The notes below the pieces were generated by a model that was given only the letters and a program-made list of their open reading frames with translations, ran no database searches and was not told the origin of the DNA. From contig NZ_CP109137.1 in the NCBI RefSeq assembly GCF_035918095.1, positions 3,412,001 through 3,476,000 on the forward strand: a stretch of DNA of 64,000 nt. Direction: 5' to 3'. This DNA comes from Streptomyces sp. NBC_01750 (lineage in GTDB: Bacteria > Actinomycetota > Actinomycetes > Streptomycetales > Streptomycetaceae). Positions 6,459-32,073 of the stretch are shown one piece after another. How positions within the stretch are numbered: position 1 is the stretch's first letter; the number at the start of each line of letters is the position of its first letter. Made by a program: the position numbers and the translations under genes.

Positions 6459-6533
6459 GGCCGTGTGCCCGAGTGGTTGAGGGACTCGCCTGCAAAGCGA
6501 GTTACGCCGGTTCGATTCCGGTCACGGCCTCCA
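6459..6533 (+). tRNA. tRNA-Cys (GCA), CCA encoded
   Basis: A complete cloverleaf is seen: acceptor GGCCGTG/CACGGCC, D arm CCC/GGG, anticodon stem CTCGC/GCGAG with loop CTGCAAA (anticodon GCA at 6492-6494), T arm GCCGG/CCGGT with loop TTCGATT, discriminator T and an encoded CCA. Its 3' side is followed by a strong hairpin and then an AT-richer accessory stretch, the usual setting of a tRNA-linked integration site. Confidence 0.97.
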
Positions 6534-10288: not shown

Positions 10289-11083
10289 TCAGCTCTCGGG
10301 CCAGTCCCCGTATCGTGTGAAGGTCTCCGTACCGCTCTTGCCCTTGAACCAGCTGACAGTGACCGAGTCCCCGCCGCCGTACGTGAGATCCCCGGCGCGG
10401 TCTTCGGCCTTGACCGGCTTTCCGCCGCGCTCGCAGAGCACCGCGATCTGGTACTTCTTCTCGGGCTCCTCGACCTTCCGGATACCGCGGCACTCCAGTC
10501 CGCCGGAGACCAGGATGACCGAGATCTTGTCCGGCTTCTCGGTGTCCACGCTCTCCTTCAACCCGAGCATGCCGCCGCCGGAGTCGGACCTCCACATACC
10601 CACCATGCCGGTCCCGGTCGGCTCGGCCCCGATGCCGGTCTCCTCCTCGCTCGGGGTCGCGCTGGGCTCGACTGCCGGCTCCTCGCTCTCCGGCGGGCCG
10701 GTGGACGGCTTCACGCTGACCTGTGAACTCCCGTTGGCCGAAGGCTTGTCGTCGTCACCTCCGCCCGACGTGACGAACCAGACGACACCACCGATGACGG
10801 CGACCGCCGCGACTGCGGCAGCGATGATCAAAGGAGTCCTACGGCCACCGGAGGGGGCGGGCGGAGGGGGCGGATAGGTCCCGTACGGCGAAGGCTGCTG
10901 ACCATACGAGCCGTAGGGAGCGCCGTACTGCGCAGGCTGGTTCGGCGGATACTGCGGAGCCTGTGGCGGCTGCGCCGGCGGCGGAGGCGGAACCGGTGGC
11001 ACCCCCGGCCGCGCATCCTGCGGTCCCGGCTGCCCATACTGCCCGGGCCAGTCCTGAGGACCCTGATACGGCGGCTGAGTCAT
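10289..11083 (-). CDS. Proline-rich single-pass membrane protein
   Basis: This 264-residue protein has three parts. An N-terminal cytoplasmic tail of about 85 residues is rich in Pro, Gln, Tyr and Gly (PYQGP, QPSPYGTYPPPPPAP). A single membrane helix (about residues 85-108, LIIAAAVAAVAVIGGVVWFV) follows. The outer part starts with a Ser/Pro/Glu linker and ends in a domain of about 100 residues with two cysteines (CRG, CERGG). This layout is common in proteins encoded beside bacterial Ser/Thr kinases and may be a kinase substrate or sensor. It is divergent from the kinase operon starting near 11400, with the palindromic motif at 11245 between them. Function unknown. Confidence 0.85.
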   Translation of the reverse strand: MTQPPYQGPQDWPGQYGQPGPQDARPGVPPVPPPPPAQPPQAPQYPPNQPAQYGAPYGSYGQQPSPYGTYPPPPPAPSGGRRTPLIIAAAVAAVAVIGGVVWFVTSGGGDDDKPSANGSSQVSVKPSTGPPESEEPAVEPSATPSEEETGIGAEPTGTGMVGMWRSDSGGGMLGLKESVDTEKPDKISVILVSGGLECRGIRKVEEPEKKYQIAVLCERGGKPVKAEDRAGDLTYGGGDSVTVSWFKGKSGTETFTRYGDWPES

Positions 11084-11406
11084 CGGTGTGCACCTCGTTC
11101 CGCGGGCATGCCACCCGCACGTGGGGGGATCTCGTACGAACCCTGCCGCTTACGGCACGGGCCCGGATGAGTATGGATCACCAACCTCCCTGAGCACCGG
11201 CACTTATTCGGGTACTCAGCAGCACCACTCGGGCCGACCGCCCTTGATTACGTATGCAATTGAGTACGTCTACCCTCATTGCCGAGCCCGCCCGGACAGC
11301 AAGGTGATCCACAACTCCTTCCGAGCGGAAGGCAACCCGGCCGATCGTCTGTCGGGCCGCTGAGTAAGCTCCTGATGCTGTTGGGGACACCGAGGGGGAT
11401 TCACAC
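11084..11406. other. Divergent promoter region of the kinase module
   Basis: Between the proline-rich membrane protein and the kinase operon lies a moderately AT-rich stretch with the palindromic motif at 11245-11264. The block from about 11363 to 11410 resembles the sequence just before the pseudokinase at 15904. Confidence 0.55.
11245..11264. promoter_or_regulatory. Palindromic motif, copy a (candidate operator)
   Basis: TTGATTACGTATGCAATTGA carries ATTAC-N4-GCAAT, one mismatch from the inverted repeat ATTGC-N4-GCAAT found at 15766, 21574 and 29723. It lies between divergent genes, about 140-160 bases from each first start codon. Confidence 0.5.
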
Positions 11407-11472
11407 ATGGGACGACTGCGCACAGCCCTGCCGCAATGTGCTGCTGCGCATGACTGCCTTCCCGGGATCTGA
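11407..11472 (+). pseudogene. Mini-ORF, internally deleted pseudokinase relict
   Basis: A 21-codon frame (MGRLRTALPQ...LPGI) starts where the pseudokinase of the second module starts (MERAHT). It ends TGACC just before the kinase start, exactly as the pseudokinase gene ends before the truncated kinase at 16828. The flanking DNA on both sides is similar in the two modules, so this looks like a pseudokinase gene reduced to its first and last codons. It may still act as a leader peptide coupling translation to the kinase gene. Confidence 0.55.
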
Positions 11473-11475
11473 CCA

Positions 11476-13668
11476 ATGCTCTCCCCATTGACGCACCACG
11501 ATCCCTTCGCGATCGGCTCGTACCGTCCGATCGCCCGCCTGGGCAGCGGCGGTATGGGAACCGTCTATCTGGCCCGTTCCGCCGGCGGCCGAACCGTCGC
11601 GCTCAAGACCATGCACGCGGGCATCGCATCGGACCCGGCCTCGCGTACCCGCTTCCGTCTCGAAACCGACGCGGCTCGCATCATCGGCGGCCACCACGGG
11701 GCGACGGTCGTCGATGCGGACCCGCTCGCCGAAACTCCCTGGCTGGCAACGGAGTACGTACTCGGTCCGCCCCTCGACGACGCCGTCTCGCTTGCCGGAC
11801 CGCTCCCTGAGCCCTCGGTCCGCGCCCTCGGCGCAGCCCTCGCCGGAGCCCTCGCCCAGCTCCACTCCTCCGACGTCGTACACCGCGACCTCAAGCCCTC
11901 CAACGTGATGGTCACGGCGTACGGCCCGAAAATCATCGACTTCGGCATCGCCCACGCGGCGGGCGACGACCGCCTCACCCGCACCGGAGCCGCCGCGGGC
12001 ACCCCCGCCTTCATGTCCCCGGAACAGGCAACAGGGCAGGAACACACACCGGCGGGCGACGTCTTCGCCCTCGCGGGCGTCCTCACCTACGCGGCAACGG
12101 GCCACGGCCCCTTCGGCTCGGGCCGGCCCGCCGACCTCCTCTACCGCGTCCGCTACGCCGACCCCGACCTCACCGGCGTCCCCGAAGCACTGACTGCGAC
12201 CCTGACCCAAAGCCTCTCCAAGGACCCCGCCCAGCGCCCCACCACCGCGGACCTCGTCACACAACTCCACGACGGCCAGGGCCAATTCGCCGACCATCTC
12301 CCCGACACCCTCCTCGCCGAGATCGCCCGCCGCGCGTCGATGGTCTGGTACTACCAACCGCACCGCCTCCCGGCCCCGGAGGAGTTCGAGACCCCTGCCC
12401 CGAGCGGCATGTCCCGCCGCAAGCTGCTCACCATCGGTGGCGGGTCGGCTCTCGGCGTGGCTGCCGCAGGCGTCGGGGCGTGGGCGTGGTTCGACAAGAA
12501 GCAGGCAGGCCACGACGGTTCGGACAACCAGCCCCGGGCCGAGAACGACGGGCCGCCGGCCGTATGGAGCGCCGAGGTCGCCGACAAGTGGCAGCGCCAG
12601 CTCCCCATGCCCGTCGGCAACACGATCGTCACCCTGTCCGACGATGGGCTGCTGGGCCTGGACGCGAAGACCGGCAAGCAGCGCTGGTCCTACTCCGCGC
12701 TTGGCGTGGGGCAGCAGATCGCGTCGGACGGCACGGCGATCTACGGCTTCGTACCCGAGGAGACCGAAGGGGAGGGGCTGACACTCAGCGCGTTCTCGGC
12801 TGCCGATGGAACCCTCGAACGTCGCATCGGGCACTTCGCCGAATTCAGCGGCGCCGTGCACGATGTGGAACTGCTCACCGCCGCTGACGGCATCCTCTGT
12901 CTGATCGCCTGGACCGGGCCCAAGTCCACGGACTTCGCCGACCAGGCCAAGGGCTGGCGCCTGCTCGCCGTGGACATCCGTACCGGGAAGAAGCTCTGGC
13001 AGCGGCCCCACGGGATGATCTATCCCGACAACGGCTCGACGGCGGTCAGCGCGAAGGCCGTCGGAAAGTGCCTCGTCACCGCAAGCAACGGAGTGGCTCT
13101 ACCGGACTTCAGCGTGAGCGGCACCGACATCCGCACCGGAAAGCGGCTCTGGACGACGGAGATGCCCAGAGTACGGGGCGACAACTCCTTCCTGATTCCC
13201 GGCCAACTCGCTGTGGACCAGCAGCACGTCTACATCAGCAGCGGACGGGTCCACGCGGTCCGGCACTCCGACGGCAAGGTCGCCTGGTCGTTCGGTGACG
13301 GGCGCAATCAGGGCGACGTCGATGAGAACGCACGACACTACGGGCCGCCGGCCGTGAAGAACGGCGTCGTGTACGCGGCCGAGGGCAGCCGTGGCCTCGT
13401 CGCCCTGAACGCCGCCACGGGAAAGCTGCTGTGGGAGGAGGTGGAGGACCTGACGAAGGAGGAGGATCCGGGGCTCGACGTGCCACCGGTCGTCGGTACG
13501 AAGTTCGTGTACGCGCATCTGACCAGCGGCATCAGCGCCGTGGATCTCCGCACCCACAAGTCCGTCTGGTCGTCGCCGAGTTCCGCGATCCGTTTCGCGG
13601 TGCACGAGGGAACCAAGACGCTCATCGGCGCCGACAACGCCACCGTGACCGCCCTGCCCTTCGAGTGA
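11476..13668 (+). CDS. Membrane Ser/Thr protein kinase with PQQ-type beta-propeller sensor
   Basis: This is a 730-residue Hanks-type kinase. The G-loop is GSGGMGTVYLA (23-33), the ATP lysine K44, the catalytic loop HRDLKPSN (D138), the metal site DFG (155-157), and SPEQ marks the activation segment. After the kinase domain (to about 270) and a linker, one membrane helix (about 315-337, after basic RRK) leads to an outer C-terminal domain. That domain has repeated blades such as GLDAKTGKQRWSY and ALNAATGKLLWEE, the PQQ-enzyme repeat signature. The propeller probably senses an outer ligand. It is the first gene of a two-kinase operon, only 12 bases before the next. The first 129 residues are nearly repeated at 16828. 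Confidence 0.95.
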   Translation: MLSPLTHHDPFAIGSYRPIARLGSGGMGTVYLARSAGGRTVALKTMHAGIASDPASRTRFRLETDAARIIGGHHGATVVDADPLAETPWLATEYVLGPPLDDAVSLAGPLPEPSVRALGAALAGALAQLHSSDVVHRDLKPSNVMVTAYGPKIIDFGIAHAAGDDRLTRTGAAAGTPAFMSPEQATGQEHTPAGDVFALAGVLTYAATGHGPFGSGRPADLLYRVRYADPDLTGVPEALTATLTQSLSKDPAQRPTTADLVTQLHDGQGQFADHLPDTLLAEIARRASMVWYYQPHRLPAPEEFETPAPSGMSRRKLLTIGGGSALGVAAAGVGAWAWFDKKQAGHDGSDNQPRAENDGPPAVWSAEVADKWQRQLPMPVGNTIVTLSDDGLLGLDAKTGKQRWSYSALGVGQQIASDGTAIYGFVPEETEGEGLTLSAFSAADGTLERRIGHFAEFSGAVHDVELLTAADGILCLIAWTGPKSTDFADQAKGWRLLAVDIRTGKKLWQRPHGMIYPDNGSTAVSAKAVGKCLVTASNGVALPDFSVSGTDIRTGKRLWTTEMPRVRGDNSFLIPGQLAVDQQHVYISSGRVHAVRHSDGKVAWSFGDGRNQGDVDENARHYGPPAVKNGVVYAAEGSRGLVALNAATGKLLWEEVEDLTKEEDPGLDVPPVVGTKFVYAHLTSGISAVDLRTHKSVWSSPSSAIRFAVHEGTKTLIGADNATVTALPFE

Positions 13669-13680
13669 GAGAGCCTCACC

Positions 13681-15762
13681 ATGATTCCCCTCAGCACCGG
13701 CGATCCCCTGCGCCTCGGCCCGTACCGGCTCATCGGCACACTCGGCGAAGGGGGCATGGGGAAGGTCTACTTCGGGCGCGACAACGCCGGCCGCAAGGCG
13801 GCGGTCAAGGTCCTTCGGCCCGAGCTCGCGCACGACCAGCAGCTGGCCCAGCGCTTCGTCCGCGAGGCCCGGACCGCCCAGGCCGTCGCCAGCACCGGCG
13901 TGGCACGGGTTCTGGGCTCACAGACCGAGGGCGGACGGCCGTGGATCGCGGCTGAGTTCCTCGCCGGGCCCACGCTGGAGGAGGCGGTCACGGCGTACGG
14001 GCCCCTGGACGAGCCCTGCCTGCGTGCGCTCGCCGCGTCCCTCGCCCGTACTCTCCAGGACATTCATGCGGCGCACCTGGTCCACCGAGACCTCAAGCCG
14101 TCCAACATCGTGCTGACCTCGCGCGGCCCTCGCGTCATCGACTTCGGCATCGCCCGACCCGAGCACGGACTGACCCTGACCACCACGGGCCAGGTCCCGG
14201 TGACCCCGGGCTACGGCGCTCCCGAGCAGGTGCTCGGGCAGCGCGTCGGCCCGGCGGCCGACGTCTTCTCGCTCGGGGCGGTTCTCGCGTACGCGGCCGG
14301 GGGGCAACGGGCCTTCAACGGTGCGCACGTGGCGGCGGTGCAATACGAAGTCGTCCATGGTGAAGCGGACCTGAGCCGGGTGCCGGACCAGCTCCGCCCC
14401 CTGATCCTCCCCTGCCTCGCCAAGGACCCTGCGCAGCGGCCCGTACCCACTCAGATCGCCCAGGCGCTCGTGCCTCCCAAGGGCGCCGCCAAGGTCTGGC
14501 GGCAGGGGCCCTGGGCCGTGGAGATCGCCCGGCGGGAGAGCGCGGCCGAGCATCTGGTCTCGTCGTACTCGACAGACGTTTCCGCCCAGCCGTCCCGACG
14601 GCGCATGCTCACCACCCTCGCCGTGGGCGGCACTGTCCTCGCGGCCGGCGCGGGCACGACCGCCTGGTGGCTCAGGGGTGGCCCGGACGGTTCGGAGCCG
14701 CGACCGGTCGCTGTTCCGCCGGCCGTCGAGAAGCCGTCGGCCGCGGTACTGGCGGCCACCGAGGCATTCGCGCCGCTGTGGGGCCCCGTGCGCGGTGCGA
14801 GTCCAAAGACCCCGTCTCCCCTGCCCGTACGCGATGTGGTGGTCTTCAACCAGGAGAGCGGTGGGCTGGCCGCCCACCGGGTGACGGACGGAAAGCGGAG
14901 GTGGCTCGTCACCGGGGCGGGTGGCTTCGCCGGCTTCCTGTCGGTCGCCGACCGTCTCGTCGTGGCGGCGGACACGGGAGGCGCGTTGCAGGCATTCATC
15001 GCCTCCACCGGGGAAAAGGCCTGGACCGCGTCGGGCGTCACCGTCGAGAAGCTGCTGGCGGCAGACGCCGACACGGTCTACGTAATGACGAAGGAACGGC
15101 ATCTGAGCGCGGTCAGCGTCGCCACGCGGAAGGCGCTGTGGTCGGTCCCCACACCAGTACGCACCTCGTTCACCGATCCACCGGCGGCGGCCGTCGGCGC
15201 GGGACGTCTGGTGCTCTTCGCATCGGACGGCCTGGTGGTCGCACTGGACACGGCCACCGGCCGCAAGGTGTGGGGCCTGCCCGACCAGGGAACGGCGCCC
15301 CTGCTACCGGCGATTGTGAAGGACAGGGTCTACTTCGGGGGGCGGACGCTTGCCGCCCACATGCTCGCCGACGGCAAGAAGATCTGGTCAGTGGAGGCGG
15401 AGACGGCCGTCGAGGAGACATCCGGCGGCTGGGGTCCTCCGGCGGTCCGCGGGGACGAGGTCTACGCCGTCGACGACAAGCTCTACCGCCGGCGTGCGAG
15501 CGATGGAAAGAAGGAATGGATGTTCTTTCTCCGCGGATACGGCGACGACCCCCGGAAGCGGCCCGTTGTGCAGGGCGGCACTGTCTGGATCGTCGAGTCC
15601 AGCGGCTACGGGCTGACGGCTGTCAGCGCGCACACCGGCGACGAGCTCTCCCTCTACACCTTCGGCGACAAGGACACGAACGCGTACGAGGTGTCGGGCG
15701 ACGGCAATCGGCTCTTCGCCGCTCATGCCGGCTCTGTCGTCGCCATGCCCGTACGACCGTGA
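13681..15762 (+). CDS. Membrane Ser/Thr protein kinase with PQQ-type beta-propeller sensor
   Basis: This 693-residue paralogue of the preceding gene has G-loop GEGGMGKVYFG (22-32), ATP lysine K43, catalytic HRDLKPSN (D137), DFG (154-156) and GAPEQ. A membrane helix lies at about 308-332 (RRRMLTTLAVGG to TTAWWL), followed by an outer propeller with blades like ALDTATGRKVWGL and AFIASTGEKAWTA. All catalytic residues are present, so it should be active. The ATG at 13681 follows the upstream stop by 12 bases, indicating co-transcription. The last bases of the gene lie next to palindromic motif b. Confidence 0.95.
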   Translation: MIPLSTGDPLRLGPYRLIGTLGEGGMGKVYFGRDNAGRKAAVKVLRPELAHDQQLAQRFVREARTAQAVASTGVARVLGSQTEGGRPWIAAEFLAGPTLEEAVTAYGPLDEPCLRALAASLARTLQDIHAAHLVHRDLKPSNIVLTSRGPRVIDFGIARPEHGLTLTTTGQVPVTPGYGAPEQVLGQRVGPAADVFSLGAVLAYAAGGQRAFNGAHVAAVQYEVVHGEADLSRVPDQLRPLILPCLAKDPAQRPVPTQIAQALVPPKGAAKVWRQGPWAVEIARRESAAEHLVSSYSTDVSAQPSRRRMLTTLAVGGTVLAAGAGTTAWWLRGGPDGSEPRPVAVPPAVEKPSAAVLAATEAFAPLWGPVRGASPKTPSPLPVRDVVVFNQESGGLAAHRVTDGKRRWLVTGAGGFAGFLSVADRLVVAADTGGALQAFIASTGEKAWTASGVTVEKLLAADADTVYVMTKERHLSAVSVATRKALWSVPTPVRTSFTDPPAAAVGAGRLVLFASDGLVVALDTATGRKVWGLPDQGTAPLLPAIVKDRVYFGGRTLAAHMLADGKKIWSVEAETAVEETSGGWGPPAVRGDEVYAVDDKLYRRRASDGKKEWMFFLRGYGDDPRKRPVVQGGTVWIVESSGYGLTAVSAHTGDELSLYTFGDKDTNAYEVSGDGNRLFAAHAGSVVAMPVRP

Positions 15763-15765
15763 ACC

Positions 15766-15784
15766 GGATTGCACGTGCAAGGAG
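15766..15784. promoter_or_regulatory. Palindromic motif, copy b (candidate operator)
   Basis: GGATTGCACGTGCAAGGAG, with perfect core TTGCACGTGCAA, begins three bases after the kinase stop and 120 bases before the pseudokinase start. Confidence 0.5.
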
Positions 15785-15903
15785 CACCGGAAGGCGACGG
15801 GCCGTCAACAGCCCCGTGACCGCCCCTGGACGGCCCACCCTCCAGACCCACGCCGGTACTTGAGTAGGCTCCTGTCGTTCATGAAACCACGGGGGCTTAG
15901 CAG

Positions 15904-16824
15904 ATGGAACGAGCGCACACGGAACGACCGCACGGGTACAGTCCGCGCCAGATCGGACCGTACTACCTCATCACGCGTCTCGATCCGGCCGGTCCGGGCT
16001 TCCCCCCTGTCCCCGAACACCGCTTTATCGCGCGGTGCGCGGACGGCGACCGTACGGTGCTGGTCAGAACCCCTGTGGATGGCGTCGATCCCGGGCGATT
16101 TCTCGTTGAGGCGGACGCGGGCCGCCGACTGCTCGGCCCATGGGTCTCCCCGGTCGCCGAACTCTCGCCGCCGTCCAACGCCCCCTGGTACGCGTCCCCG
16201 TACCTCCCCTCGCTGCCCCTTCCCGTGGCCCTCACCGTCCACGGCGGGCCCTTGCCCGAGCGCACAGTGCGGGCCATCGGGACTGCCCTCGCCGAGACGC
16301 TGGCGGGCGCGCACGCGACGGGCATCACGCACGCGGGCCTGTCGCCCGCAGCCGTACTGCTGGCGGGCGACGGCCCGCGCCTGACCTGCTTCGGCGCCGT
16401 ACGCGCCGCCGCCCCGGACGGCGAACAGCGCTCCGGCCTCCCCGGCCTGGAGCCCGGCAGCCTCGCCCCGGAACAAGCGTCGGGCGGCCGCCCCCGCCCG
16501 CCCGGGGACGTCTACGCACTGGGCGCGGTCCTCGCGTACGCCGCCACCGGCCACACGGTCCCGGACCGCAGCGAACTACCCGAATCCCTGCGCTCCTTGA
16601 TCTCCCGCTGCCTCACTCGTGACCCGGCGGCCCGCCCCACCGCTGCCGAGGTCCTGCACGCGCTGCCTCCCGCGTCACCGGCACCCGCGGCCACGGTTCT
16701 CGACTCGAGCACCTCGCTGCTGACGCCCGGCTGGCTGCCGGGTCGCGTGGTGGCGGCAGTGGCCCGCCAGTCCGCCGAGGTCCTCGCCGCTGAGCTCCGC
16801 GTCCCGCAGCCCCACGGGGTTTGA
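15904..16824 (+). CDS. Kinase-like protein lacking catalytic residues (pseudokinase)
   Basis: This 306-residue protein keeps the outline of a bacterial Ser/Thr kinase, including a late LAPEQ-like segment and GDVYALGAVLAYAATGH, matching the APE and F-helix region of the neighbouring kinases. The catalytic parts are lost: no glycine loop, arginine (VLVRT, R55) at the beta-3 lysine, HAGLSP (143-148) in place of HRDLKP, and CFG (162-164) in place of DFG. No membrane helix is seen, so it is probably cytoplasmic. The stop is followed after three bases by the GTG of a truncated kinase, so pseudokinase and kinase once formed one unit. A regulatory or scaffold role is inferred. Confidence 0.85.
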   Translation: MERAHTERPHGYSPRQIGPYYLITRLDPAGPGFPPVPEHRFIARCADGDRTVLVRTPVDGVDPGRFLVEADAGRRLLGPWVSPVAELSPPSNAPWYASPYLPSLPLPVALTVHGGPLPERTVRAIGTALAETLAGAHATGITHAGLSPAAVLLAGDGPRLTCFGAVRAAAPDGEQRSGLPGLEPGSLAPEQASGGRPRPPGDVYALGAVLAYAATGHTVPDRSELPESLRSLISRCLTRDPAARPTAAEVLHALPPASPAPAATVLDSSTSLLTPGWLPGRVVAAVARQSAEVLAAELRVPQPHGV

Positions 16825-16827
16825 CCG

Positions 16828-17214
16828 GTGCTGTCTCCTCTGACGCATGACGATCCCGCCGGTTTCGGTTCCTACCGTCTGATCGCCCGGCTGGGCAGCG
16901 GCGGCATGGGCACCGTGTACCTTGCCCGCTCGGCCGGCGGCCGGACCGTCGCGCTCAAGACCATGCACGCGGGCATCGCCTCGGACCCGGGATTCCGCAC
17001 CCGCTTCCGCCTGGAAACAGACGCGGCACGGATCATCGGCGGCCATCACGGCGCGATCGTGGTCGACGCCGACCCGGTGGCGCAGACGCCGTGGCTGGCC
17101 ACTGAGTACGTACTCGGCCCACCACTGGACGACGCCGTTTCGCTTGCCGGACCGCTGCCCGAACCGTCGGTCCGGGCGCTGGGCGCCGCTCTTGCCGGGG
17201 CCCTCGCCCAGCTC
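16828..17214 (+). pseudogene. Truncated copy of the Ser/Thr kinase gene
   Basis: From the GTG at 16828, 129 codons match the N-terminus of the kinase at 11476 with roughly ten substitutions, including the G-loop and lysine K44. Homology stops abruptly after GALAQL, just before the position of HRDLKPSN. The frame then runs on into unrelated sequence antisense to the next gene (to 17418). Without catalytic loop, DFG, membrane helix or propeller the product cannot be a kinase. It is the remnant of a duplicated module. Confidence 0.85.
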
Positions 17215-20799: not shown

Positions 20800-21240
20800 T
20801 TACTTCAGGTCGGGCTTGTCGTCAGCGCCGCCGTTCTTGCCCTTGTGGGCGTTCTTGTAGCGGTCTGCTTCGTCTTTGTCGCGTACCTCGAAATCAGCTG
20901 CGGACGCCCGAAGCGCACCCGCTACGTCGTTCTTGAGCAAGCCCTCGACGTAGGACACCTGCTTCTTCCACCGAGTGATGAAGGTGGCGAAGGCAGGACC
21001 CGACTTGAAGCCCTTCAGGCTTGCTCCCACCTGGCCGGTTTCTGTCATCACCTTGTTGTCGGCATCGACAAAGTCACCGCGGGCAGTGTCAGCTTTGTCC
21101 GCGCGGCCCATCAGCACGCTGTACGTCACGTGGAGCCTCTGCCCGCCTCCGCGCCCACCGTTCCCGTCGTCAACATGGTTGAGCTGCATTCGGGTTGTGG
21201 CTTCGCTCTTGTGCTGGGCCCACTCTTCTTCAAACGACAT
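20800..21240 (-). CDS. Small helical partner of the WXG100-like protein
   Basis: This 146-residue soluble protein is rich in charged residues and predicted helices (MSFEEEWAQHKSEATTRMQL, then FATFITRWKKQVSYVEGLL). It has a Gly-rich loop and no signal peptide. Proteins of this kind are typically encoded directly before large WXG-domain proteins and may co-fold with them, as EsxA/EsxB-type pairs do. No clear WXG turn or YxxxD motif is seen in this one. It is first in a four-gene minus-strand operon whose upstream region contains palindromic motif c. Confidence 0.8.
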   Translation of the reverse strand: MSFEEEWAQHKSEATTRMQLNHVDDGNGGRGGGQRLHVTYSVLMGRADKADTARGDFVDADNKVMTETGQVGASLKGFKSGPAFATFITRWKKQVSYVEGLLKNDVAGALRASAADFEVRDKDEADRYKNAHKGKNGGADDKPDLK

Positions 21241-21791
21241 GTCTTCCTCAGGACTGCGGTCGATTCGTTGCCAGGACTGGTTCGCTGTGACTCACAGGAA
21301 TCTCGGAGACCTGATCCATGAAGGGTGGCGGAGCTTGCGGCGGCCACCGTACGCCAAACCACAGCGCAGGGCGGGCACTTCCCCCGCAGCCATCACACCG
21401 TTCGTCGCCCGTCCTTTGAGCCGGGCCTCGCACCCTGGGCAGCCCCGAGCAGGCCAGCAGAGGGCCGCGACGTCCAGCCCCCGACCTACCGTTGCTCGGC
21501 AGCAACGTACCCTCCCCCGTTATCCACAGCCTCAGAGCCACTGTAGCGAGCGTTTATGACAGGGAACACCCCTGGATTGCGCTTGCAATTAGCTACAAAT
21601 AGTCACGAGTGGGGGCGGTTACCGCGCTTGGGGCCAATCGCTTGCCCGGCGGTTTCGCCATGCGAATGTACGAGACGTCCTTAGATGGATGACGAGCAAA
21701 GGTACAGCGCAGTCATCCACCTCCCAGCGAAGCCGCACTCGGCCACTCGGTCGGCTCTGCTGACGTTGTCTTGTCGACGGGGGATTCGCAC
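21241..21791. other. Upstream region of the WXG operon
   Basis: Open frames are short and unsupported. It contains motif c and, towards 21745-21791, sequence resembling the region before the pseudokinase start (GACGGGGGATTCGCAC before ATG). Confidence 0.5.
21574..21592. promoter_or_regulatory. Palindromic motif, copy c (candidate operator)
   Basis: GGATTGCGCTTGCAATTAG carries the perfect inverted repeat ATTGC-N4-GCAAT. The 14 bases CACCCCTGGATTGC (21567-21580) are identical to those at copy d (29716-29729). Confidence 0.6.
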
Positions 21792-21914: not shown

Positions 21915-22057
21915 TCGGGACCGCTCCCGGCCACGCCACAACCGGAGCGCCCGGACCCACTCCAGAACTGCGACCCTGCGACCGCGCCTTCCGAGCGCCG
22001 TAACCAGGCCGCTGCCGGGGGCTGCCGCCCACCGGCACCGCGCCGCTCCAAGCTGCC

Positions 22058-22858: not shown

Positions 22859-24263
22859 ATATGGAATCTCGGGCCACTCAAAGTCGTCGGCCGTACCATG
22901 CGACAGTCCACAGCCGCGAGAGCGGCCAGGCTCAGGGGAGACGACAATGTCACCCAGACTGACCGGGTCCTGACGGGCCACCGTACGGGGAGTTGGCGTT
23001 GGGAGCGCCACCCTGCGGCGGGCCGTAGGTCGGTGGGTACTGCGGCTGATACGGGTACGGAGCAGGGGCTGCCGTGGGCGGCACAGGCGGAAGTGCCGTG
23101 CTGCGACGGCGGGACCGGACGAGCGGGACGGCTATTGCGGCGCCGATGAGGGCGGCCGCGCCGACGCCGAGGGCTACCCACAGGCCGAAGTTGCTGTCGT
23201 CGCTGGACGCGGGCGCCGCCGTGTCTGGCTGCTTCTTGCCCGACTCGGTGCCGCCAGCGGGCTTGGAGACGTCCGGGGACGGCGACTTGGGGGCAGCAGC
23301 GGCGAGGTCCGGGAGGGGGTACTCGTCGGCCGGCCCGGGGTCACCAGGCGTCTTCAATGCGATACGGGGCCGCACGGCTCCATAACCCCCGGCGTCGGTA
23401 CGCGCTTTGCCGCTTTTTGCCTTGCCAGCCGTGTTGATCAGGACGCGGAGGACCTGGTTATTGGACCATTGCGGGTATTTGGACCAGATCAGGGCGGCTG
23501 AAGCGGACGCAAGAGCGGTGGCATCGCTGGTGCCGTGGCTCTTGCACATCTGCGTCCCCCCGCCACACGCGGAAAAGATGTCTGCACCAGGGGCAACAAG
23601 GTCTACTTGCGGTCCTCGCTCCGACTCTTTGGTCGTCCGGCCGTTTCTGTCGTAGGCGGCCATTCCCACGACGCCCGGGAGGGCCGCCGGGTACATGACC
23701 GGATTCCCCTTTTCACCGTCGTTGCCCACACCAGCGAAAATCAACGAGCCTTTAGCCAGCGCATACTTCACTGCTTCGCCAACTTGACCTGATGGCTCTT
23801 CATCAGAAGCCTGCGAGATGTTGATGACTCGCGCACCCGAGTCCGCCGCATGACGGATCCCTTTACTCATCGAACTGTCCCACAGCTCGGGGTTCGATCC
23901 CAGCTTTGTCCCTTCGTTGGGCTTGGGCAACCTGATCGGCAGAATCTTGGCCCCAGGAGCAAGGCCGAATGAGCCCTTCCCTCCCGGCCGCTTACCCGTA
24001 GCTGCGATCACGGCGGCCATCCCCGTGCCATGCCCCTCATAGTCCGAATTCTCGTCACCCGGCTGCTTCGAGAGGTCAAGTCCTGGAAGTACCTGCCCTT
24101 GCAGATCACGCAGACGATCGTCGACACCTGAGTCGATGACGGCGACGGTGACGCCCTTGCCTGTGCTGGTTCGCCACATCTCATCAGCATGCATCGTGTC
24201 CAGATGCCACTGCTGATCGCGGATTGTCTCCGCATGGGCAGGAGTTGCGGCGATGCCCACTAG

Positions 24264-25203
24264 GGCCTGTTGCGAAAGTGCTGGTCAAAGCCATTCGTTG
24301 ATGGCTGCGACCAGCACGGTGGCTTCGTAGCGGACGGCGAGTTTGTCGTACCTCGTTGCCACTGCGCGATGTCTCTTGAGGCGGTTGATGCCGCACTCGA
24401 CCGCGTGGCGTTGTTTGTAGTCTTCCCTGTCGAACTTCGGTGGTCTGCCTCCGCGGGAGCCGAGGTTCTTGCGGTTGCGGATCTGGTCCGCCTTCTCCGG
24501 GATGGTGCAGGCGATCCGGCGTCCGTGCAGGTAGGCGCGGTTGGCGCGGGATCCGTAGGCCTTGTCGCCCCGGACCTTGTCAGGTCTGGTTCGCGGCCGT
24601 CCGGGGCCTGGACGGCGTACTCGGATCTTCTCCAGGACCGGGCGGAAGTAGGGACTGTCGTGCCGGTGGCCGGCGGTGATGAGCAGTGACAGTGGTTTCT
24701 GTCCCTGCTCGGTGGCGAGGTGGATTTTCGTAGTCAGACCGCCGCGGGAACGTCCGAGGGCGTGGTCGTCGGGCTCGGTGACGAAGCCGCCGGGCGGTTC
24801 CTTTTGAAGGTCCCCTTTTTACGTGCCCCGGCGGCGTGCTGATGAGCACGGCAGACCGTGGAGTCCACGCTGACGTCCCACGTGATCAGGCCCTTCGCAT
24901 CGGCATCGGCCTGCAGTTGCTCCAGAATCCGGTGCCAGGTGCCGTTACGCTGCCACCGGCGGAACAGGTCGTAGACCCGGTCCCACGGCCCGTACCGCTC
25001 GGGCACATCCCGCCACGGCGTTCCCGCCCGCGTCCGCCACCGTATGCCGTCTATAAGCTGCCGCCTGGTCCAAACCGGCGGCCTCCCGGCCTTCTTGCCC
25101 ATCGGCAGCAGCGGCTCCAGCCGCGACCACTGTGCATCTGTCAGATCTCCACGCGCCACAACGCATGATCATCACCGATCAAGATCCACTTTCGCAACAG
25201 ACC
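24264..25203 (-). mobile_element. IS5-family insertion sequence, 940 bp
   Basis: The ends are 17-base imperfect inverted repeats (GGYCTGTTGCGAAAGTG, one mismatch), flanked on both sides by CTAG (24260-24263 and 25204-25207), the target duplication. It carries one transposase in two frames. Family and target preference fit the IS427-like branch of IS5. It interrupts the mycosin signal peptide and is transcribed in the same direction. Confidence 0.93.
24285..25159 (-). CDS. IS5-family transposase, two frames joined by -1 frameshift
   Basis: The first frame starts at GTG 25159 ([18 protein letters not shown]) and ends at 24734. The second frame, in the -1 register, continues with EPPGGF, then [17 protein letters not shown] and the C-terminal half, ending AINEWL at 24285. 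The switch probably occurs at the A-rich AAAAAGGGG near 24822. DDE-type catalytic residues are visible: [10 protein letters not shown] (D), GDKAYGSR (D) and [14 protein letters not shown] (E, with the usual K/R spacing). No other stop or frameshift is seen, so the element may be active. Such a frameshift is normal for this IS group. Confidence 0.88.
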
Positions 25204-26095: not shown

Positions 26096-27439
26096 TCAAC
26101 CCGGTTGGCCCGGTCCGGACTGCGGGCTTTGACCCTGGCCGGCCTGCGGCGGGCCGTAAGCCGGGAATTGAGGCTGCTGCTGATCGGGAACCGGCGAAGC
26201 CGGGGAGGACACGGCAACTCGACGGCGGGAGCGGATGACCAGGGCGGCGACTGCGGCACCAATGAGGGCGGCCGCGCCGACGCCGAGGGCTATCCACAGG
26301 CCGGTGTTGCTGTCGTCGTGGGACGCGGGCGCCGCGGTGTCAGGCTGCTTCTTGTCGGACTCAGTACCGCCGGAAGCTTTCGAGGGCTGCGTGGAGGGCG
26401 ACTCGGGGGCGGCGGCCGCGAGATCCGGGAGGGGGTACTCGCCAGCGGGGCCGGGGTCGCCCGGGGTCTTCAGAGCGATGCGCGGACGGACGGTCCCGTA
26501 GCCGAGGAAGTCGGTGCGCTTCTCCCCGCTCCTCGGGCTGCCGGCCGTGTTGAGCATGACTCGGAGGACCTGGTTGTTGGTCCACGTCGGGTGCTGCGAC
26601 CAGATGAGGGCGGCGGACGCAGAGGCGAGAGCGGTCGCATCGCTGGTCCCACTGGTCTTGCACAGGCGGGTCGTCTTGGTGCAAGACGCGACGATGTCCC
26701 AGCCGGGTGCGACGAAGTCAACGAGAGGCCCGTGCTGGGACTCCTGCGTCTTCTTGCCGTCCTTACCGATGGCACCTATGCCCACCACACCTGGAGTGGC
26801 AGCCGGATACTCAATGTCGGTGTCGCCCTCGTTTCCTACAGCGGCAAAGATCAGCGAGCCCTTGTCCAGCGCGTACTTCACCGCACTCGTCAACTGCGGC
26901 GATCCGTGGATCACGCCCTGCGAAATGTTGATGACCTTGGCACCCTGGTCGGCCGCGTAGCGGATCGCTTCACTCACCGGCTTCTGATACTCGTCGGCCT
27001 GGTCCTGCCGACTCCCCGAGAGGTCCGTGTCAGCCAGACGGACGGGAAGGATCTTGACTCCGGGGGCCAGTCCGAAGGCACCGTTTCCACCGTTCAACTT
27101 GCCGGTACCGGCGATGACGCCGGCCATGCCGGTGCCGTGGCCCTCCGTGTCGGTCCGTTCACTGCCCGGCTCCTCAGAGGTGAAGTCCTTGCCTGGGAGA
27201 ATCTGACCTTGAAGGTCGGGATGCGTGACGTCGACACCACTGTCGAGTAGTGCCACGGTGACACCCTTACCGGTGCTGACCTTCCACATTTCCTCGGCGT
27301 GCATGGCATCCAAGTGCCACTGCGTGGAACGGGTGGACTCCGCCAGAGCCGGTGCGGCAGCGGAGCCCACCAGCAGTAGGCCCAGCGACGCCGCGACAAC
27401 AAGCCTGCGACGACGCGATCGAATACTGCTGGTAGACAT
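26096..27439 (-). CDS. Mycosin-like S8 serine protease (type VII-associated)
   Basis: This 447-residue subtilase has a Sec signal peptide (MSTSSIRSRRRRLVVAASLG, cleavage near ALA 31-33), a catalytic triad D66 (DSGVD), H101 (GHGTG) and S266 (GTSDAT), and the oxyanion-type Asn203 in GNEG. A Cys pair lies near 253 and 260. A linker rich in Ser, Thr and Pro follows, then a membrane helix (about 383-405) and a Pro/Gln-rich cytoplasmic tail. This is the mycosin (MycP) layout, proteases that sit on type VII secretion systems. AAAGGA precedes the ATG. It lies 30 bases after the WXG/PPE-like gene. It is the intact paralogue of the gene split at 24264. Confidence 0.95.
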   Translation of the reverse strand: MSTSSIRSRRRRLVVAASLGLLLVGSAAAPALAESTRSTQWHLDAMHAEEMWKVSTGKGVTVALLDSGVDVTHPDLQGQILPGKDFTSEEPGSERTDTEGHGTGMAGVIAGTGKLNGGNGAFGLAPGVKILPVRLADTDLSGSRQDQADEYQKPVSEAIRYAADQGAKVINISQGVIHGSPQLTSAVKYALDKGSLIFAAVGNEGDTDIEYPAATPGVVGIGAIGKDGKKTQESQHGPLVDFVAPGWDIVASCTKTTRLCKTSGTSDATALASASAALIWSQHPTWTNNQVLRVMLNTAGSPRSGEKRTDFLGYGTVRPRIALKTPGDPGPAGEYPLPDLAAAAPESPSTQPSKASGGTESDKKQPDTAAPASHDDSNTGLWIALGVGAAALIGAAVAALVIRSRRRVAVSSPASPVPDQQQPQFPAYGPPQAGQGQSPQSGPGQPG

Positions 27440-29653: not shown

Positions 29654-29722
29654 GAACGCCTCCCCGTTTACACACGTCTACAGGGATCACTGTACCGAGC
29701 CCCAGTGACAGTGCGCACCCCT

Positions 29723-29741
29723 GGATTGCAGGTGCAATGAG
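29723..29741. promoter_or_regulatory. Palindromic motif, copy d (candidate operator)
   Basis: GGATTGCAGGTGCAATGAG with core ATTGC-N4-GCAAT lies between the hydroxylase operon end and the YxxxD gene start. The flanks resemble those of motif c (CACCCCTGGATTGC before, TACGAGT/CACGAGT after). Confidence 0.6.
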
Positions 29742-29751
29742 CGTCACACGG

Positions 29752-32073
29752 TTACGAGTTGGGAATGGCCACGGCCGCCTGAGGCCTGATCGGGAGCCGG
29801 TTGATCGGCCTCCCCGTTGCCGCGCGTACCGCCGAAGCCACCGCCGCCGGGGAAGTCACCACCGGGGCCGCGCTCGCCGGCTTCGCCCCGAACGGGGCCA
29901 CCACGTCCCGTTCCTCGACCAGTTTCACGATGCGAATGTCCGGAGCGTCAAGAGATGTCGGGAGTGCGTAGCCCGTCAGGTCGGGATGGCGGACCAGGCC
30001 GCGGGCCGTGCGGAGGTTTTCCGTCAGGGCTGTGCCGACGCCCTGGGTCACGCCCGCCTCGATGCGCGAAGCCAGTTGGGCGGGGTTCAGGACGCGGCCC
30101 ACGTCCTGGGCCACCGCCATTTCGACCACGCGGATCGAGCCCAGTTCGATGTCGACGTCCACCACCGCGCGGATCGCGCAGAACGCGAGGCCCACGAAGG
30201 CGTCTCCCTGGCCCGAGTCGTCGAGGGGCTCGGTCGGGTGGGGGCGGCACTGGGCCGTTGCCCACAGTTCCTTGCCGTCCATCGCCTCCGTCACCGTCGT
30301 CGACAGCACGCCGTCGTACGACGTGATCTTGCCGTCGGTGATCTGGAGCAGCTCCGTCGACATCCCGAACTTGTGGGCCAGCGGCTGGAGGAGCTGGGTG
30401 CGGACCATTCTCGCGGCCCTCTCGACCGCGCCGCCCGAGACCCATGTGTGGCGGCCGTGGGCCGCCGGGCCCGCCGGTGGCTGGTCCGTGTCGACCGAGG
30501 CCACGCGGACCTCTTCGATGCCCAGCGTCTCCTGGACGATCTGGCGGGCGAGCGTGGTGAAGCCCTGGCCCGTTTCGACTGCCGCGCAGATGACGGTCGC
30601 GATCCCGTCGTGGACCTTGACCGTGGCTGTGGAGACTTCGTCGGTACCTTCCGCGCCGAGCATGTGGACCATGCCCAGTGCGTAGCCCACGCCGCGGCGG
30701 ATCGCTCCGGGTTCGCCCGCGCCCTCCGGGCCGCCGGGGAGCAGCCAGTCGTTCTCCGGTGTGTCCTTGGGAAGGTCGGGGAGCGGGAAGTCCCGTACGG
30801 CGTGGAGCAGTTCCGCGACAGGCGCGGGACAGGTGACCGTCTGGCCGGTGGGGAGGATGTCGCCGGTGGCAAGGGCGTTGCGGAGGCGGAGTTCGGTGGG
30901 GTCGAGGCCGAGCTTGGCGGACAGTTTGTCCATCTGGGCCTCGTACGCCGCGCACACCTGCATCGCTCCCTCGCCGCGCACATGGCCCGACGGAGGGTTG
31001 TTCGTGCGGACCGCCCAGCCCTCGATGAAGGCGTGCGGGACGACGTACGGGCCGCAGGCGAAGGCAACCGCGGCCGCGAGCGATTCGGAGGAGGCGTCGG
31101 CGTACGCGCCCGCGTCCAGGAGCAGTTGGGCCTCGACCTTGACCAGGCGGCCCTCCGCGTCCGCGTGGTGGCGGTAGCGCAGCAGCGTGGGGTGGCGGTG
31201 GGCGTGGCCGAGGAAGGACTCCTCGCGGGTTGCCGTCAGCTTGACCGGGCAGCCCGTCTTCAATGCCAGCAGGCCCAGCGGGAGCTGGAAGCCGGGGTCC
31301 TCGCGGTCACCCGTCGCGCCCGGGACACCCGTGACGACGACCTTCACCCGGTCCTGCTCCAGGCCGAAGCACGCCGCCGCGAGATCGCGGTCGGTGTGGG
31401 GGTCGGTGGAGGCGACGTACAGCTCCACGCCGCCGTCCGGGCGCGGGACGGCCAGGCCGGCCTCGGCGCCGATCGGGGCCGGATCCTGGCGGCCGATGCG
31501 GTAGAGGCCCTCGACGATCACCTCGCCCGCCACATCGGGGTCGCCGTAGCGGAGCGGGATGTGGCGGATCAGATTGCCGTCGGGGTGCAGGGGTTCGGCG
31601 GCGAAGGCCTTCTCGGGGTCGGTGACCGGTTCGAGGGGTTCGTACTCGACCGCGATCGCCGCCGCCGCGAGGCGGGCCGTGTCGGGGTGGTCGGCCGCGA
31701 CCGCGGCGATCGCCTCGCCGTGATGGCGGACGATCTCGGAGGCGAAGACGGGACGGTCCGCGATACGTCTGCCGTACGACGAATCACCCGGAATGTCCTG
31801 GTGTGTAACGACTGCTCGCACTCCCGGCATGTCCAGCGCCGCCGAGGTGTCGATCGAGCTGATACGGGCGTGCGGGTGCGGGGAGCGCAGGATCGCCGCC
31901 CACAGCAGCCCTTCGGCCCACAGGTCGGCGGCGTACGGAAACGTGCCCTCGGTCTTGGCGCGGGCATCGGCCGGCGGGAGGGAGGCACCGAGTCCGTGCG
32001 CAGGCGGCTGGGTCTGTGGCTGAGGGCCGTCGACCGCCTGGGGCGTCGCAGTGGTGGCCGCGTCGTTGCTCAC
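29752..32073 (-). CDS. Molybdenum hydroxylase (xanthine dehydrogenase family), molybdopterin subunit
   Basis: This 773-residue catalytic subunit is the large chain of the xanthine dehydrogenase/CO dehydrogenase family. It holds the molybdopterin cofactor and oxidises a heterocycle or aldehyde with water as oxygen source. The order is an N-terminal a/b hammerhead domain (ASLPPADARAKTEGTFPYAADLW), then the cofactor-binding region with VRGEGAMQ and SGQGDAF. The usual KGVGE motif with the catalytic glutamate reads GAKPASAAP here, so that residue is missing at its normal place. The GTG start overlaps the iron-sulfur gene stop by four bases. The substrate is unknown; xanthine cannot be assumed. Confidence 0.92.
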   Translation of the reverse strand: MSNDAATTATPQAVDGPQPQTQPPAHGLGASLPPADARAKTEGTFPYAADLWAEGLLWAAILRSPHPHARISSIDTSAALDMPGVRAVVTHQDIPGDSSYGRRIADRPVFASEIVRHHGEAIAAVAADHPDTARLAAAAIAVEYEPLEPVTDPEKAFAAEPLHPDGNLIRHIPLRYGDPDVAGEVIVEGLYRIGRQDPAPIGAEAGLAVPRPDGGVELYVASTDPHTDRDLAAACFGLEQDRVKVVVTGVPGATGDREDPGFQLPLGLLALKTGCPVKLTATREESFLGHAHRHPTLLRYRHHADAEGRLVKVEAQLLLDAGAYADASSESLAAAVAFACGPYVVPHAFIEGWAVRTNNPPSGHVRGEGAMQVCAAYEAQMDKLSAKLGLDPTELRLRNALATGDILPTGQTVTCPAPVAELLHAVRDFPLPDLPKDTPENDWLLPGGPEGAGEPGAIRRGVGYALGMVHMLGAEGTDEVSTATVKVHDGIATVICAAVETGQGFTTLARQIVQETLGIEEVRVASVDTDQPPAGPAAHGRHTWVSGGAVERAARMVRTQLLQPLAHKFGMSTELLQITDGKITSYDGVLSTTVTEAMDGKELWATAQCRPHPTEPLDDSGQGDAFVGLAFCAIRAVVDVDIELGSIRVVEMAVAQDVGRVLNPAQLASRIEAGVTQGVGTALTENLRTARGLVRHPDLTGYALPTSLDAPDIRIVKLVEERDVVAPFGAKPASAAPVVTSPAAVASAVRAATGRPINRLPIRPQAAVAIPNS

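Follow-up and report, generated by a model that had tools for sequence, protein, structure and literature searches.

A three-gene operon, psk-kinA-kinD, encoding a pseudokinase followed by two AfsK-like Ser/Thr kinases, has probably been duplicated at a conserved chromosomal site in Streptomyces sp. NBC_01750, with complementary gene loss rotating the order to kinA-kinD-psk. The window (the whole 64,000-nucleotide stretch of DNA that was analyzed) corresponds to 3.41-3.48 Mb of a genome that comprises 8.98 Mb in three contigs. It holds three copies of one promoter and pseudokinase start, arranged head to tail, with start codons at 11407, 15904, and 21792. Copy 1 retains kinA and kinD, copy 2 retains psk, and copy 3 retains no gene, leaving the order kinA-kinD-psk and one intact gene of each kind. 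The initial annotation had proposed an ancestral two-gene signalling unit that was duplicated and decayed in complementary ways, each copy keeping one working part. Its coordinates were confirmed. Duplication with complementary decay is supported, and neither of the two refuting conditions named with the proposal was borne out, but the unit had three genes, kinD having been overlooked, and its copies keep two, one, and no working parts, respectively.

Table 1. Features of the kinase unit copies and junction elements in the window
Feature	Position	Strand	Evidence
Copy 1 promoter and ribosome-binding region, alpha type	11320..11406	+	Like that upstream of G285 psk
psk1 remnant, 21-codon ORF where psk was lost	11407..11472	+	39 nt between flanks, 878 nt in G285
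kinA1, intact AfsK-like Ser/Thr kinase, PQQ_2 propeller at the C terminus	11476..13668	+	Pfam Pkinase 5e-31, PQQ_2 2e-28; catalytic residues kept
kinD1, another intact Ser/Thr kinase-PQQ gene, last of three in the ancestral unit	13681..15762	+	Pfam Pkinase 2e-36, PQQ_2 2e-23
Palindrome TTGCACGTGCAA, directly 3′ of kinD1, copy 1/copy 2 junction	15769..15780		Exact match
Copy 2 promoter region, beta type	15820..15903	+	Common to L038, L039
psk2, 306-aa intact pseudokinase lacking a PQQ domain	15904..16824	+	Catalytic residues lost, structural residues kept; dN/dS 0.12-0.14
kinA2 stub, first 129 codons of second kinA	16828..17214	+	82.5% identity to kinA1
76-nt copy of right-flank start, upstream of psk3	21539..21614		74% identity to 29688-29763
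psk3 remnant, start codon 21792, ~42 codons	21787..21918	+	E 3e-16 to psk2
Start of conserved right flank, other copy of 76-nt element	29688..29763		Sequence match to 21539-21614

Three copies share a start region and have lost different parts

We aligned 116-nt start regions from the three sites and compared the scores with 500 mononucleotide shuffles. Each pairing exceeded all shuffles (sites 1 and 2, 32 versus a largest shuffle of 27; sites 1 and 3, 35 versus 27; sites 2 and 3, 37 versus 30). The start context claimed for all three sites is therefore shared by this test, but the identical gene order claimed with it is limited to sites 1 and 2, because no kinase follows site 3. The boxes TAAGCT, TAGGCT, and TCGGCT lie 42, 39, and 41 nt before the start at sites 1, 2, and 3, respectively. 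The box TAG[GA][CA]T is found in 46 of 79 related loci, 20-90 nt upstream of the psk start, compared to 1.3% of shuffles, in a count that uses script-picked starts, some of them misplaced. The site 1 region resembles that of a second Streptomyces genome, G285 (score 166, largest shuffle 29), and a search of 392 Streptomyces genomes with 11040-11480 matched two, the window's own and G285. The site 2 region resembles those of two other psk loci, L038 and L039 (scores 80 and 65, largest shuffles 31 and 28).

At site 1, the pseudokinase has been deleted and the kinase is intact, as first annotated. Both the start and the stop of the remnant ORF are of psk type. The surroundings of G285 psk match the window at 10291-11421 (84%) and 11461-12348 (83%). 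Between these flanks lie 39 nt in the window and 878 nt in G285, whose corresponding chromosomal site has one psk; thus, psk1 was lost by deletion. G285 was rejected as an undamaged reference and serves for synteny: its psk has a 1-nt gap close to the start, and a deletion (loci L168/L169) has fused kinA, up to residue 405, to kinD from residue 51 onward. The flanks of the unit are common to the window, L038, and G285; the left one ends close to tRNA-Cys (6459-6533), and the right one carries a xanthine dehydrogenase subunit gene (29752). At least one of the two flanks adjoins the unit in 29 of 80 psk loci; as each locus spans at most 10 kb per side, the remaining loci were not scored as lacking flanks. 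In trees of one gene stretch per flank, the window is sister to G285 plus L038.

At site 2, psk2 is intact and the kinase, which begins 3 nt after it, is cut after 129 codons. Alignment of 11463-11862 with 16815-17214 gave 82.5% identity over 400 nt without gaps (E 5e-115), and the match ends abruptly at 17214. The stop-to-start junction TGACC-N-start is identical at 11470 and 16822, also as annotated. Genome searches revealed no kinA besides kinA1 and the stub, no second kinD, and no second psk ortholog, the next-best psk match being 45%.

kinA1 and kinA2 were sisters in three trees, with moderate support (95/78, 89/94, and 83/90; none attains 95 and 80 together, the level set by the program). 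The two differ chiefly at third codon positions (7/6/54 for positions 1/2/3), with a dN/dS of 0.06. Both copies were therefore functional for most of the time since they separated, and the sequence comparison suggests that kinA2 was probably cut late. Their synonymous divergence, ~0.8, equals the between-species level.

Site 3 holds a remnant of psk, as had been proposed: 21787-21918 matches 15914-16057 of psk2 at 72% (E 3e-16). In trees, psk3 groups with G285 psk (87/92) and not with psk2, and a 5-codon gap is common to psk3 and G285 psk. The 76-nt element upstream of psk3 occurs at two places only in the genome (E up to 0.01), the other being the start of the right flank. The repeat contains a TTGC...TGCAA palindrome, and a third palindrome lies at 15769. 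The 15769 element shows a weak likeness to the right-flank element (30 versus a largest shuffle of 24), and its comparison with the element before psk3 was not significant (20 versus 24). A copy of the flank element before psk3 and a like palindrome after kinD1 would be expected at tandem junctions, although the kinD1 likeness is weak. The repeat and palindrome are possibly an operator or a trace of recombination.

Just past the psk3 break, 21948-22030 contains a fragment, out of frame and with a stop, that resembles the short protein motif PLQNCDxCDRAFRAP; the motif belongs to an unrelated gene that many Streptomyces carry. This stretch takes most of the listed matches of a genome search (184 of 392 genomes). 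An Rfam search of 8000-30000 yielded nothing at gathering thresholds, and no tRNA was found at the breaks, as ARAGORN detected only tRNA-Cys (6459) and a tmRNA (62104) in the window.

Type VII-type genes lie between the copies and the right flank. They include a mycosin at 22950 (TIGR03921, 321.7 bits, cut-off 278.75); WXG100 matches at 20800 and 18496 fall under the cut-off. The mycosin (22950-24260) and a second S8 protease (26096-27439) are 62% identical and are separated by an IS4/5-family transposase gene (24734-25159). In G285 and L038, no type VII-type genes were matched next to the unit, which is thus independent of them there.

The ancestral unit is psk-kinA-kinD

Scanning genome contigs with psk2 gave 97 related stretches, of which 80 loci were kept (78 titled Streptomyces). 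The order was psk-kinA-kinD in 73 of the 80, a set that includes ORFs below full length (kinD of L054, L096, and L107; kinA of L102) and also L057, whose first kinase is 80% identical to kinA despite a script label of kinD. Thus, the adjacent psk and kinase expected by the initial annotation are present in 73 of the 80 loci found through psk. Two loci, L074 and L083, have the window's order, kinA-kinD-psk; one (L076) has psk with a single kinase, and four lie at contig edges.

We also surveyed 295 Streptomyces genomes, this one included, for psk (E up to 1e-50) and kinD (E up to 1e-105). psk was matched in 67 genomes (some matches being a longer protein), kinD in 65, and both in 64. By coordinates, psk precedes kinD in 50 of 53 pairs from 51 genomes, this one included: 47 at the usual 2.0-2.8 kb and three (G285, G145, and G129) at another distance. 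kinD comes first in the other three pairs, from this genome, G269, and G227; in the latter two the order is kinD-psk-kinA, and the rest of the set was ordered by psk and kinD. The pair comparison left out 16 of the 67 psk genomes: 10 with a four-gene type, called from ORF lengths with four read, three with the genes split across contigs, and three without kinD. It also left out G041, which has kinD only. G041 was rejected as a second case of psk decay because there is an assembly gap close to its 40-codon psk tail.

The other orders found, kinA-kinD-psk and kinD-psk-kinA, are rotations of the ancestral one, as duplication followed by loss predicts, and no locus in which all three could be placed showed a non-cyclic order. 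We considered and rejected a psk relic upstream of kinA in L074 and L083: the 20- and 18-codon ORFs there gave best matches of 35 and 26 against shuffle maxima of 42 and 35. Mean scores to psk upstream regions fell short of the largest shuffle for L074 (20.7 versus 21.0) and were barely above it for L083 (18.9 versus 18.6). The sequence before kinD in L170 had no match to psk upstream regions above shuffles (31 versus 41).

Four loci (L174, L175, L178, and L179) carry four-gene operons in which two consecutive long psk-like genes precede kinA-kinD. These psk-like genes have 708-833 codons (900 in one) and were judged dead by motif scan. PQQ_2 was present in all three proteins scanned, which come from two of the four loci read. 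The short psk may derive from such a long gene by shortening. L177, in genome G174, has a second kinA-kinD pair without psk, with a kinA frame of 463 codons, several kb from an intact triad. Among the literature matches listed, none describes the three-gene operon.

The pseudokinase lacks catalytic residues and is under constraint

None of 81 aligned psk sequences keeps the beta-3 Lys, the HRD Asp, or the DFG Asp (Gly replaces the HRD Asp in 81 and Cys the DFG Asp in 79), while kinA keeps them in 76, 76, and 75 of 76. Structural residues are retained in psk: the helix-C Glu in 80, the APE Glu in 81, and the helix-F Asp in 80. The helix G segment has 32 residues in all 78 parsed psk sequences (three of the 81 were unparsed), compared to 49 in 70 of the 73 kinA and 66 of the 76 kinD that were parsed; it has 36 in two kinA and six kinD. 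The structure alignment drew on 36 of the 80 psk loci plus the window. A structure model of psk2 has a kinase fold (pLDDT 81.6, pTM 0.84) with no helix at the helix-G stretch, and matches kinase structures that include Stk1 and PknA. Pfam detected no PQQ_2 in the window psk. Against three relatives, psk2 has a dN/dS of 0.12-0.14. Having lost its catalytic residues while keeping a low dN/dS, psk looks enzymatically dead and kept by purifying selection.

Mycobacterial kinases pair via their N-lobes and via helix G. As the contacts of a domain that lacks helix G would be confined to the N-lobe, we propose that the pseudokinase acts in the cytosol on KinA and KinD allosterically through its N-lobe. 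Its most likely role is that of allosteric partner to both AfsK-like kinases, and such a partner would have to be retained even when relocated. The pseudokinase could instead be an operon-encoded inhibitor or decoy of KinA and KinD, not an activator, which we hold to be a real but doubtful possibility. A helix-G-less domain could cap a kinase N-lobe, and a title in the reference list of PMC1262709 presents AfsK as inhibited by a binding protein, KbpA.

Origin of the arrangement

In the course that we favor, the unit would have been duplicated head to tail between the tRNA-Cys side and the xanthine dehydrogenase side. Copy 1 would then have lost psk, copy 2 most of kinA and all of kinD, and copy 3 everything except the psk start. 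Because one intact copy of each gene survives, the order would have rotated from psk-kinA-kinD to kinA-kinD-psk. The copy alignments, the start-region scores, the synteny of both flanks with G285 and L038, the psk-first order in 73 of 80 loci and in 50 of 53 pairs, the pairing of kinA1 with kinA2, and the flank element before psk3 all argue for this course, as do the psk match in 64 of 65 kinD genomes, the purifying selection on psk, the single psk and kinD here, and the rotated orders elsewhere. Against it count the moderate support for the kinA1-kinA2 pairing, the grouping of psk3 with G285 psk, the kinA1-kinA2 synonymous divergence, and the weak kinD1/psk2 junction likeness; the alpha promoter at site 1 and beta promoter at site 2 count against a recent duplication in place. 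With two units and an even chance of loss for each of their six genes, a single copy of every gene would be left in one of eight cases, so the complementarity suggests need without proving it.

Duplication in place is the likely, though unproven, origin of copy 2. In the main rival, which we regard as unlikely, homologous recombination with the DNA of a relative placed copy 2 (beta promoter, psk2, and kinA2) next to copy 1, and redundant parts were then lost. This would account for a beta promoter that is common to L038 and L039 and absent from copy 1 and G285, and for the position of psk2 outside L039, L038, and G285 in the DNA tree (87/91). It also fits evolution of both kinA copies under constraint (polarized changes by codon position 3/1/16 in kinA1 and 3/2/23 in kinA2, with 19 ambiguous) and an L039 locus that matches neither flank, so that its unit may sit elsewhere. 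However, kinA1 and kinA2 are sisters, and the copies stand head to tail at one site. An approximately unbiased (AU) test, for a group chosen after the tree was seen, rejected a clade of kinA1 with G285 kinA (p-AU 0.0098), so that kinA1 is not its plain ortholog; a clade of kinA2 with L038 was not rejected (p 0.10). Of the two, we favor duplication in place.

A variant of duplication in place, with overlapping odds, puts the event before the split from G285 and L038, with G285 keeping copy 1, L038 keeping copy 2, and gene conversion homogenizing kinA1 and kinA2. L038 sequence beside g10289 enters the beta promoter directly, as expected if copy 1 was deleted there, and G285 has the alpha promoter. 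Yet L038 and G285 psk are sisters (98/97) and conversion events are required, making this older date improbable. That the repeats are an assembly artefact is hardly credible: nothing in its favor was seen, the kinA copies differ by 17.5%, the copies of the unit are broken at different places, and the genome is in three contigs.

More tentatively, with a probability somewhat short of even, duplication and complementary loss may recurrently rotate this kinase operon in Streptomyces, with the window as an intermediate and psk kept as an obligate partner of both kinases. If so, the window would capture an intermediate of bacterial operon reshuffling in which promoter, start, stop, and junction relics are still present. 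The genome is also a natural test: from several copies it retained one pseudokinase and two kinases, suggesting a need for all three.

Comparison with known systems

KinA and KinD share their architecture with AfsK, a PQQ-repeat Ser/Thr kinase of Streptomyces, which is also their best match in NCBIfam. As kinA1, kinD1, and psk2 score 301.8, 247.3, and 88.9 bits with NF053615, far below its cut-off of 1300 bits, KinA and KinD are AfsK-like, not AfsK.

ActPs1 is a published actinobacterial pseudokinase family of unknown function (PMC12599244). According to the excerpted text of that article, its members resemble psk in being actinobacterial, in having all three catalytic residues replaced, and in lacking helix G, which is missing in ~60% of the family. 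A C-terminal PQQ_2 domain is present in many members but is not obligatory; the three psk-like proteins scanned from four-gene loci also have one, whereas the window psk does not. The excerpt describes no operon with two live kinases, the setting in which psk sits. Placing psk with the ActPs1 pseudokinases, a family that stands next to Act1 in the published kinase tree, fits these sequence features and would give the family two concrete candidate partners, KinA and KinD. EssB/YukC is a pseudokinase tied to type VII (VIIb) secretion and, in the excerpt of PMC9600267, part of the secretion system; psk differs in being AfsK-like and in having no type VII genes matched beside its unit in G285 and L038.

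For the arrangement as a whole, the closest likeness is to tandem duplication-random loss.

This process is known from mitochondrial gene orders, where it leaves a rotated gene order and leftover partial copies. Both are found here: the window has head-to-tail partial copies whose intact genes complement one another, and the order that results is the old one rotated, as in L074, L083, G269, and G227. The literature matches listed include no case of tandem duplication-loss in a bacterial operon. Unlike the mitochondrial examples, the window concerns a bacterial signalling operon.
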